Below are positions 61,681 through 63,916 of a stretch of DNA of 64,000 bases, one piece after another. A model generated the notes under the pieces. That model had not been told where the DNA came from and did not search any database. It was given only the letters and a program-made list of their open reading frames with translations. Location of the stretch: contig NZ_CP149926.1 in assembly GCF_037949285.1 (NCBI RefSeq), forward strand, positions 1,963,501 to 2,027,500, given 5' to 3'. Made by a program: the position numbers and the translations under genes. Numbering within the stretch: position 1 is the stretch's first letter; every line of letters begins with the position of its first letter. Origin of the DNA: Thioclava sp. GXIMD4216 (GTDB lineage: Bacteria; Pseudomonadota; Alphaproteobacteria; Rhodobacterales; Rhodobacteraceae).

Positions 61681-62052
61681 ATGACGTCCGAAACCACGCA
61701 AGACGCACCGATGGAAGGCACCCCTCTGATCAAGCCTTCGACCATTGACCACCCCATGTATGATTCGGTCGTGGCGGCCTGCCGGACCGTATTCGACCCC
61801 GAAATTCCGGTGAATATCTATGATCTGGGCCTGATCTACACGATCGAGATCACCGACGAGGATGACGTGAAGATCATCATGACCCTCACCGCACCCGGCT
61901 GCCCGGTGGCAGGCGAGATGCCCGGTTGGGTGCAGGATGCCATTTCCTGCGTCGAGGGGATCAAATCGGTCGATGTGGAAATGACCTTCGATCCGCAATG
62001 GGGCATGGATATGATGTCGGACGAGGCGCGCCTCGAACTGGGCTTCATGTAA
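61681..62052 (+). CDS. sufT: SufT / MIP18-family Fe-S assembly protein (DUF59)
   Basis: A 123-residue protein. The core FDPEIPVNIYDLGLIYTIEI and MTLTAPGCPVAGEMPGWVQD is the DUF59/MIP18 signature, with the conserved Cys of APGCP, and the end matches the SufT type. It assists maturation of iron-sulfur proteins. GGGG precedes the start. A SufA/IscA-type carrier lies 1.5 kb downstream, with a SatD-like/DUF3307 pair in between. Confidence 0.9.
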   Translation: MTSETTQDAPMEGTPLIKPSTIDHPMYDSVVAACRTVFDPEIPVNIYDLGLIYTIEITDEDDVKIIMTLTAPGCPVAGEMPGWVQDAISCVEGIKSVDVEMTFDPQWGMDMMSDEARLELGFM

Positions 62053-62060
62053 CCCGATAC

Positions 62061-62078
62061 GCAAGCAAAATCACTTGC
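62061..62078. promoter_or_regulatory. Operator-like dyad 1 upstream of the SatD-like gene
   Basis: GCAAG-N8-CTTGC (GCAAGCAAAATCACTTGC). Its right arm overlaps the predicted -35 hexamer. A second site with the same arms and spacer lies exactly 30 bp downstream. Confidence 0.7.
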
Positions 62079-62102
62079 ACAAAGCCAAAAGCAAGCGATA
62101 AT
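62075..62102 (+). promoter_or_regulatory. Predicted sigma-70 promoter of the SatD-like gene, apparently leaderless
   Basis: TTGCAC (62075-62080) and GATAAT (62097-62102) are separated by 16 bp. Transcription would start about seven to nine bases after the -10, which is at the ATG (62111). No ribosome-binding site precedes that ATG, so a leaderless mRNA is likely. Each hexamer is interlocked with one operator dyad. Confidence 0.6.
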
Positions 62103-62108
62103 GCTTGC
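62091..62108. promoter_or_regulatory. Operator-like dyad 2 upstream of the SatD-like gene
   Basis: GCAAGC-gataat-GCTTGC, an 18-bp dyad whose centre is the -10 element GATAAT and which ends two bases before the ATG. A bound protein would block RNA polymerase directly. Confidence 0.75.
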
Positions 62109-62110
62109 AG

Positions 62111-62701
62111 ATGGATTATGCGGTTCTCACAGGTGATATTGTCGGCTCTTCCGACCTGCCCCCCGCCTTGATCGAGACGGGGCTTGCTGCTTTGGAATGC
62201 GTGGCCGAGGCGGTTCCCGAAGCGGTCTGGATCAGCCGTCACCGAGGGGATGGCTGGCAGATGGCCTGTGAGGCCGCGCTTCTGGACCTGCGCTTGGCGC
62301 TTTTGGTCCGCGCCAGCCTGCGCGCGGTGAACCCGATGCTGGACACCCGTATCGCGATGGCGCGGGGCGCGGGCGTGATCCCCGAAAATGGCGATCTGAA
62401 TGCCGCACAGGGGGCGGGTTTTGTGGCCTCGGGGCGGTTGCTGGACGCGATAACGGGGGCCGAACTCCACCATGCTGCGGGGGGCGCATGGTCGGCTGCG
62501 GTGCGGCTGGCCGATGCGCTCAGCAAGAGCTGGACGCAGAAACAGGCCGAGACCCTGCGCGAGATGCTGGCCCTGCCCGCGCCCTCGCAACAGGCCACGG
62601 CGGAGGCCTTGGGCAAATCCCGTCAGGCGGTGGCGCAAGCCCTGCAAGGCGCGGGGTTCGGCCCGATATCCGAGGCCTTGGCCCAATGGGAGGCCGCATG
62701 A
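62111..62701 (+). CDS. SatD-like protein with C-terminal helix-turn-helix, probable autoregulator
   Basis: A 196-residue protein. The N-terminal MDYAVLTGDIVGSSDLPP fits the SatD family opening (x-x-GDI-x-x-S), a fold related to nucleotide cyclases. SRHRGDGWQMACEAALLDLR continues that domain. Residues about 158-185 (SQQATAEALGKSRQAVAQAL) form a likely helix-turn-helix. I start at the ATG 62111, since the promoter layout suggests a leaderless transcript; a TTG two codons earlier is also in frame. The DUF3307 gene overlaps its stop (ATGA). It probably represses its own promoter through the two dyads; that is inference. Confidence 0.75.
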   Translation: MDYAVLTGDIVGSSDLPPALIETGLAALECVAEAVPEAVWISRHRGDGWQMACEAALLDLRLALLVRASLRAVNPMLDTRIAMARGAGVIPENGDLNAAQGAGFVASGRLLDAITGAELHHAAGGAWSAAVRLADALSKSWTQKQAETLREMLALPAPSQQATAEALGKSRQAVAQALQGAGFGPISEALAQWEAA

Positions 62702-63484
62702 TCGCCGCCAGTCTCGCAGCACTTCTCCTTGCCCATCTGCTGGGGGATTTCGTCTTTCAAAGCGCAAAGATGGCCGAAAAGAAAGCGTCTGGCCCGCTGG
62801 CCCGCCGCCTGCCCGCATTGGCGCGCCACATGGGCGGTTCATGCGCTTTTGCTCGCCCTGCTCTTGCCCGCGCCTGACGCGCAGGGCGCGCTGGCCTTCG
62901 TCGCCATCTTGGCCAGCCATTTTCTGATCGACGCCCTCAAGCCCAGGCTGCGCGGCACGGCACTGCGGGTCTTCTTGGCCGATCAGGCCGCGCATTGGCT
63001 GGTGATCTGCGCCTTGGCACTAACCCTGCCCGATCTTTGGGCACACACGCTTTGGATGAAAACCCAAAGCGGTTTGGCACCCTATTTGCCGACGGTTTTC
63101 GCGCTTGTGGCGGGGGCGGTGCTGACCGTGCGCATGGGCGGCTTCGTGATTGGCGCGCTGATTCAGCCGCTCGCCGAACGTGCACCCCAAGGGGGGCTGC
63201 CGAAAGGCGGTCAACTGATCGGCCTTCTGGAACGCGCTCTGATTTTCGTGCTGATATTGACCGGCCAGCCACAGGGGATCGGCTTTCTGATCGCCGCCAA
63301 ATCCATATTGCGCTTCGAGGCCAAGGGCGGGCCGGACCATAATGCTGCCAATGAATATGTGATCATCGGCACGCTGGCCTCGTTCGGCTGGGCGATTGCC
63401 TGTGCATATCTGACGCTGGGCCTGTTGGCGCATCTGCCCCCTATCGGCATTCCGGCCCTTGGAATCCCGCAGCATAGCCCTTAA
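62698..63484 (+). pseudogene. DUF3307 membrane protein gene with a one-base frameshift
   Basis: The ATG overlaps the SatD-like stop (ATGA). The first frame gives MIAASLAALLLAHLLGDFVF, QSAKMAEKKAS and so on to HM, a clear DUF3307 start, and then runs to a stop at 62877 with nonsense residues. The remainder (HALLLALLLPAP, ILASHFLIDALKPRLRG, four more hydrophobic segments, KSILRFEAKG near the end) continues in the +1 frame. Removing one G from GGG at 62832-62834 joins the two frames as HMAVHALLLALL, giving about 261 residues. Either the gene is broken or the sequence has an error here. It is translationally coupled to the SatD-like gene. Confidence 0.8.
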
Positions 63485-63511: not shown

Positions 63512-63916
63512 ATGTTTGGTATTCCCGGGCAGCCCGCTGTCACTATGACCCCCGCCGCCGTCAAGCACATCGCCAAGCTCATGAGCCGCGAGAATGCCGC
63601 CGGTTTCCGCATCGGCGTGAAGAAAGGCGGCTGTGCAGGCATGGAATATACGATGGAAATCGCACAGGAAGCGGGACCGATGGATATGGTCATCGAGGAA
63701 GGTGCGGCCCGTGTGCTGATCGCGCCCACCGCACAGATGTTCATGATCGGCACCGAAATCGATTACGAAGCGGGCCTTCTCGAATCGGGGTTCAAATTCC
63801 GCAATCCGAATGTGGCGGAAAGCTGCGGCTGCGGAGAATCCATCAAATTCAAGGACATTGGCGAACTTAGCGCCGAGACACAGCCCGAGGATGGCGTGCC
63901 GCGCCTGAAAGGCTGA
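63512..63916 (+). CDS. sufA: SufA/IscA-type iron-sulfur carrier protein
   Basis: A 134-residue A-type carrier. The three cluster-binding cysteines are in KKGGCAGMEY and ESCGCGESI, as in IscA, SufA and ErpA. The core TPAAVKHIAKLM and IEEGAARVLIAPTAQMFMIG are typical. A short acidic tail follows. GGAG precedes the ATG. It lies 27 bp after the DUF3307 gene and may share its transcript. With sufT upstream, SufA is the likeliest type, but IscA or ErpA cannot be excluded. The last 84 bases of the window show no gene. Confidence 0.9.
   Translation: MFGIPGQPAVTMTPAAVKHIAKLMSRENAAGFRIGVKKGGCAGMEYTMEIAQEAGPMDMVIEEGAARVLIAPTAQMFMIGTEIDYEAGLLESGFKFRNPNVAESCGCGESIKFKDIGELSAETQPEDGVPRLKG

Follow-up and report, generated by a model that had tools for sequence, protein, structure and literature searches.

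Gene order and promoter elements at the locus

Within the window, by which we mean the whole 64,000-nucleotide stretch of Thioclava sp. GXIMD4216 DNA that was analysed, a SatD-like gene encoding a protein with a cyclase-like domain and a C-terminal helix-turn-helix (HTH) is followed by a gene for a DUF3307 membrane protein, and the pair is flanked by two suf genes (Table 1). The start assigned to the first gene, which we refer to as the regulator, agrees with its aligned relatives, as these begin a few residues ahead of the sequence VLTGD.

Table 1. Genes, protein domains and putative promoter elements at the regulator locus, with positions given within the window.
Feature	Position	Strand	Remarks
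Upstream neighbour, SUF-associated protein (TIGR02945)	61681..62052	+	Context only
Putative operator 1, upstream dyad GCAAG-N8-CTTGC, GCAAGCAAAATCACTTGC	62061..62078	.	Exact match; chain kept in relatives
-35-like sequence TTGCAC	62075..62080	+	Within and just beyond the right arm of operator 1
Putative operator 2, downstream dyad GCAAGC-N6-GCTTGC, GCAAGCGATAATGCTTGC	62091..62108	.	Last base lies 2 bases before the ATG
-10-like sequence GATAAT	62097..62102	+	Makes up the spacer of operator 2
Cyclase-fold/HTH regulator gene (SatD-like), 196 aa	62111..62701	+	Start fits aligned relatives
Class III nucleotidyl-cyclase-like domain, about residues 1-140	62111..62530	+	Structure model and profile
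Recognition helix of the C-terminal HTH, residues 171-181	62621..62653	+	Secondary structure of the model
DUF3307 membrane-protein gene	62698..63484	+	Start overlaps the regulator stop; PF11750, E 1.2e-9
Downstream neighbour, SufA/IscA-type protein	63512..63916	+	Context only

An earlier note on this DNA had placed two identical GCAAG-N8-CTTGC dyads 30 bp apart ahead of the regulator gene, one overlapping a TTGCAC hexamer and the other enclosing a GATAAT hexamer, and the coordinates bear this out: the dyads are 30 bp apart from start to start, and the two hexamers are separated by a spacer of 16 bp. The word identical holds for the motif, which both dyads match exactly, but not for the full repeats, as the arms of the second are 6 bp long. 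The same note had reported that a ribosome-binding site is missing, and we likewise found no Shine-Dalgarno-like sequence before the ATG at 62111. Transcription is predicted to start most likely on this ATG or one base before it, giving a transcript that is probably leaderless.

Exact copies of GCAAG-N8-CTTGC occur twice in the window, at the operator pair alone, and five dyads are found when one mismatch is allowed, versus 3.8 expected; single dyads of this kind are therefore not rare, but the pair is. In the complete genome there are 15 exact copies, compared with five for the reversed control. We considered the 13 copies outside the promoter as extra targets of the regulator and rejected them: 12 lie within long open frames, and a lone one is intergenic. 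This last site (L270, at C1:2061021-2061038 of genome G000) is a single dyad with 8-bp arms directly after a gene end, and is perhaps a terminator.

A cyclase-like domain joined to a helix-turn-helix

The structure model of the regulator has a pLDDT of 97.2, and the best structural matches of its N-terminal domain are class III cyclases, with TM-scores of about 0.4-0.5; the nearest folds include the cUMP synthase 7r65. Profile comparison gave a match to Ma1120 (E 8.3e-5) in which Asp9 and Asp47 align with the two aspartates of that enzyme, which we take to be its metal-binding pair. The model, the structural matches and the profile thus agree on a ferredoxin-like cyclase fold. Across the 146 loci described below, Asp9, Asp47 and Gln50 are each conserved in 145 and Trp49 in all 146. 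By our own reading, position 105 corresponds to the transition-state asparagine of these enzymes, the profile alignment ending before this helix, and it is occupied by V, T, I or E; Arg109 is present in 88 of the 146 loci. The regulator differs from the adenylyl, guanylyl and uridylyl cyclases of class III (Ma1120, Rv1900c and 7r65), to which it is related by TM-scores of only about 0.4-0.5, in that its putative transition-state Asn position is unconserved and an HTH is attached at its C-terminus. The likeliest reading of these sequences and models is that the N-terminal domain is a nucleotide-binding sensor that does not carry out normal cyclase chemistry.

The domain had been described earlier as a SatD-type, cyclase-related one. 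The cyclase-like part of that description stands, but the SatD label holds loosely: the window protein has no match to Pfam SatD (PF16264) at E<=1, and just 3 of 53 aligned relatives match it at E<=0.1 (best E 4.9e-7). The C-terminal HTH that had been proposed has its predicted recognition helix at residues 171-181 of the model, and it co-varies with the operator half-site (discussed below). Zn-ribbon and ATP-cone matches were absent from the window protein. A role in anti-phage defence was considered and rejected: with PADLOC the regulator matched only weakly, to IetA (E 0.057), and the DUF3307 protein taken from one relative, L082, had no match. Where SatD appears in the papers found, it is an annotation tied to acid tolerance and not to DNA binding, as in the excerpt available of PMC10326533. 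The listed matches for SatD in the open-access literature from 2018 include none on a cyclase-fold/HTH regulator, and open-access searches for "SatD family" and like terms returned annotation only.

Dyad arrays are conserved in the Rhodobacteraceae

Within the genus that contains Thioclava, 14 of 16 genomes carry the regulator gene. With one locus from another genus, these give 15 close loci. In 12 of them the GCARG-N8-CYTGC dyads number two or three and are spaced at exactly 30 bp, being of the GCAAG type in some loci and the GCAGG type in others. The 30-bp series is absent from L009, L014 and L015. Two of these, L009 and L015, which belong to the window's own genus, have a different inverted repeat in place of the array, GGAAGGGCT...AGCCCTTCC, which ends at the start codon, and in L015 the C-terminal frame of the regulator is broken too.

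With a profile built from 14 of the proteins, matches were found in 84 of 394 Rhodobacteraceae genomes, a set with about one genome per genus. For the survey, 80 loci came from a scan of named genomes and 54 were fetched, and a crude similarity filter reduced 179 loci to 146. Perfect dyads with 5-bp arms and an 8-bp spacer number 210 in the 146 promoter regions, and three sets of control regions have 15 (145 regions), 28 (146) and 26 (146). The distances between pairs of perfect dyads peak at 29 bp (30 pairs) and 30 bp (14), and again at 58 bp (10) and 60 bp (12). We also scored chains of dyads with a model that admits spacings of 28-31 bp. At the threshold used, 2.3, the 99th percentile of the upstream and shuffled controls coincides with their maximum. 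The earlier note had suggested looking for the dyads ahead of orthologues and would have taken a lack of conservation there as a refutation; this did not come about, and 107 of the 146 non-redundant loci carry a chain of two to four that scores above every control, with further arrays outside the family (see below). There are two dyads in 54 of these loci, three in 38 and four in 15. Spacings within the chains are 29 bp (94), 30 bp (62), 28 bp (18) and 31 bp (1), though the model restricts them to this range and the perfect-dyad pairs are the unbiased measure. The other 39 loci fall under the threshold; several have imperfect dyads by eye, and examples such as L100, L105, L113 and L116 have none.

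The relation of the array to the promoter is also kept. In 74 of the 107 array loci the last dyad ends 0-4 nt 5' of the start codon (2-3 nt in 61 of them), and the best -35 sequence starts within the right arm of the preceding dyad in 70 of the 74. The central six bases of the last dyad resemble TATAAT more closely than those of the preceding one, with a mean match of 3.3/6 versus 2.4/6. Shine-Dalgarno-like motifs were found in 10 of the 74 loci with a dyad at the start codon, in 17 of the 33 with the dyad farther off, and in 19 of the 39 without an array, and their low frequency in the first group points to leaderless transcripts there without proving them. At another locus, L265, the last dyad (GTAACCCCAGGAGGTTAC) abuts the ATG and includes the ribosome-binding sequence AGGAGG, meaning that the putative operator there overlaps the ribosome-binding site.

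Perfect inverted repeats would also suit RNA stems, and at L004-L006, L010 and L011 a T-rich, terminator-like sequence follows the farthest dyad. Both observations could be accommodated if the dyads act in RNA as hairpins, whether in a leader or closing off the upstream suf transcript (attenuator or terminator). We believe this to be very unlikely, as a last dyad that encloses the -10 sequence and ends 0-4 nt from the start codon, as in 74 of the 107 loci, would lie outside the transcript of that promoter, and as a 28-30 bp period in up to four copies, co-varying with the HTH, would be unexpected for RNA hairpins.

The recognition helix co-varies with the dyad half-site

We compared each of the 196 columns of the regulator alignment with the sequence of the operator half-site. 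Mutual information was highest for column 176, followed by 175 and then 177, and all three lie within the predicted recognition helix. Residue 176 is Gln in the window protein (codon 62636-62638). Base 5 of the half-site was called separately; 40 of the 146 loci were uncallable and six had A or T. Where base 5 is C (23 loci), residue 176 is Lys in 23/23, and where it is G (77 loci), Lys176 occurs in 0/77. Most of the Lys176 loci belong to a single clade. The clear separate case is L122, in which Lys176 and a GCAACC half-site occur together and the nearest relatives have neither, and a further Lys176 locus, L109, has two C-type dyads followed by a last dyad of the G type. On a tree built without the HTH, Lys176 changes at least three times (about three). 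Four independent pairs on supported branches gave two to three concordant and no discordant cases (sign test 0.25-0.5), too few for significance. The partial Mantel correlation, at 0.153, is small as well, and 14 of 999 permutations reach it.

Among 38 loci from outside the Rhodobacteraceae (not dereplicated), C5 is present in 9/9 of those with Lys176 and an array score above 3, which come from about four lineages by eye, so the Lys-C rule held there. Another five Lys176 loci have no array near the gene, although one of them, L260, has an array farther upstream. Outside the family, Asn176 is found with C or T, Ala and Thr with A, and Glu with G; since Asn176 also pairs with C there, Lys is not required for C. 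The HTH of the regulator and the half-site of its putative operators thus appear to have changed together in evolution, and this co-variation supports binding of the regulator to the dyads. The matched protein-operator series (23/23 versus 0/77, and 9/9 outside the family) is also direct test material for a recognition code.

The suf neighbourhood and the DUF3307 partner

The regulator gene follows a SUF-associated gene in 107 of the 146 loci, and arrays are present in 81 of these 107 and in 26 of the 39 loci that lack this neighbour, indicating that the array goes with the regulator gene. Three further Rhodobacteraceae loci (L219, L220 and L222) have sufT, DUF3307 and sufA in a row and no regulator, suggesting that the regulator is a part of the locus that has been lost or inserted; by eye, the stretch before DUF3307 in these genomes contains no such array. 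These comparisons bear on whether the dyads are bound by another protein, such as a suf-operon regulator of the iron-sulfur type, with the HTH correlation reflecting shared ancestry. The place of the gene between two suf genes, its frequent SUF-associated neighbour and a tree-aware test that is not significant when taken alone would all fit such an explanation. However, arrays also occur away from the SUF neighbour, the top co-varying columns fall in the regulator's own recognition helix, the pairing of Lys176 with C extends to distant lineages, and the sufT-DUF3307 genomes that lack the regulator show no such array. We therefore regard binding by another regulator as highly improbable, and favour binding by the protein encoded next to the array.

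As the earlier note had proposed, the regulator and DUF3307 genes form a pair: a DUF3307-like frame adjoins the regulator in 144 of the 146 loci. The DUF3307 fragment in the window scores 38.7 bits, versus a cut-off of 23 for PF11750, and 46 of 46 aligned relatives match this family at E<=0.1. The frame is split at about 62820-62845, beside a run of G, and PF11750 matches two pieces in the genome itself; the shift is either a sequencing error or a sign of a broken gene. In L002, a relative that is 67% identical, DUF3307 is intact. Invariant His, Asp, Gln and Lys residues suggest that DUF3307 may be a membrane enzyme with a metal site. The structure model (pLDDT 90.6) showed no known fold (best Foldseek E 0.44), a sequence search of the PDB gave nothing at E<=1, and in the open-access literature DUF3307 appeared as a table entry only.

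The CAAG-type array is confined to the regulator gene in 80 genomes

We searched for tandem arrays in 80 of the 84 gene-bearing genomes using a CAAG-type pattern. Pairs of CAAG-N8-CTTG at a spacing of 28-30 bp were found 30 times, spread over 22 of the 80 genomes, and every one is 3-101 bp away from where the protein match of the regulator gene begins; the reversed control gave one match. In 80 genomes that lack the gene there was one tandem match (G087), compared with two for the reversed control. The stricter pattern GCARG-N8-CYTGC-N12-GCARG-N8-CYTGC has two matches in the 394 Rhodobacteraceae genomes, both at the regulator gene, and none for its reversed control. We had considered a wider regulon marked by tandem arrays, and this was rejected given that 30 of 30 CAAG-type matches in the 80 genomes are at the regulator gene itself. 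The restriction of the array to the regulator gene in these genomes fits self-regulation. The autorepressor put forward in the earlier note is thereby supported as a self-regulator, by the conserved arrays and the HTH co-variation as well as by this restriction.

Proposed model of regulation

Building on the dyads, their conservation, the predicted fold, the operon and the co-variation, we infer binding, cooperativity, repression, a ligand response and a transcription start in the following model, which we consider likely as a whole. The regulator would bind the dyads ahead of its own gene through its HTH and repress the operon of regulator and DUF3307 in response to a nucleotide held by its cyclase-like domain, with transcription starting at the ATG or one base before it. 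Each 18-bp dyad would be occupied symmetrically by the C-terminal HTHs of a dimer, and a distance of 28-30 bp, or three helical turns, would place the bound dimers on one face of the DNA. As the putative operators cover the -35 and -10 sequences, their arrangement implies repression, in which RNA polymerase would be shut out and the two-gene operon held down. Most likely, the cyclase-like domain would bind a nucleotide together with metal and thereby tune the affinity for DNA, such that a change in ligand would release the regulator and raise the expression of both genes.

The protein could also bind the array mainly as an activator, or could be an enzymatically active nucleotidyl cyclase making a product that acts on DUF3307. 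Its nearly invariant metal aspartates, the presence of cUMP synthase 7r65 among its nearest folds and the membrane location of its partner are compatible with these roles, but we think them unlikely: operators over the -35 and -10 sequences are at the usual site of repression, and position 105 varies among V, T, I and E and Arg109 is found in 88 of 146 loci, with the equivalence of these positions being our own reading and not a tool alignment.

The repressor that we propose has a likeness to NrdR, which senses nucleotides and whose paired promoter boxes lie about three helical turns apart from centre to centre (from the portion of PMC12051234 available). The tandem dyads found here likewise lie over the promoter at integral helical turns (28-30 bp). 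NrdR often controls its own gene as well (from an excerpt of PMC9110341). The two proteins differ in their domains, as NrdR, a repressor of ribonucleotide reductase genes, consists of a Zn-ribbon and an ATP-cone and the regulator described here of a cyclase-like fold and an HTH, and also in their targets, given that the CAAG-type tandem array is at the regulator's own gene only in the 80 genomes. The proposed circuit ties the SatD-like domain to DUF3307, both of unknown function, in a form that can be tested, and suggests that a cyclase fold can serve as a sensor for transcription. The identity of the ligand would also tell what DUF3307 does.

Occurrence outside the family

To place the regulator more widely, we searched genomes of the same class, where 2 of 240 matched, both Rhodobacteraceae, and of another class of the phylum, where 6 of 274 matched, with 40 of 118 matching in the family of G884. 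We take this other class to be the Gammaproteobacteria, judging from the named Pseudoalteromonas relatives. A search for DUF3307 in 299 genomes of the phylum gave 24 matches, eight of them outside the class; seven of these eight genes adjoin a SatD-like gene, and six of the seven have dyad arrays. In a larger set from the other class, a score above 3 is reached by 27 of 37 loci; among the controls it is reached once in 109 upstream regions and 12 times in 740 shuffles. The single upstream control that exceeds this score is the real L260 array and was kept in the count. Spacings in these arrays are 28 bp (29), 29 bp (21) and 27 bp (1), and on a Pseudoalteromonas plasmid two GTAACC-type dyads that we read from the sequence are 28 bp apart, the last one ending four bases before the ATG.

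A broader reading would be a family of one-component repressors that is old, widespread and so far undescribed, in which a class III cyclase-like domain would serve as nucleotide sensor and the only targets would be the regulator itself and DUF3307, reached through two to four dyads (about ten in one relative) three turns apart. Residue 176 would largely set the half-site, with Lys specifying C, Gln, Tyr or Glu specifying G, Ala or Thr specifying A, and Asn specifying C or T, and the operators would have changed many times as the architecture was kept. We regard this broader reading as evenly balanced between right and wrong.

The relative with about ten dyads is L260. Its tandem repeat (TRF 1744-2035) consists of about ten 28-bp units with a GTAACTACTAGTGGTTAC-type dyad, lies 230-540 bp upstream of the regulator and scored 20.25 as a control region, above all loci, and we interpret it as an expanded operator-like array. 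The regulator-DUF3307 pair is also present on a plasmid of the gut Bacteroidota species Segatella copri (L281, NZ_CP137558.1), with two ATCAA-type dyads 28 bp apart, and there the pair adjoins an IS1182-type transposase gene.
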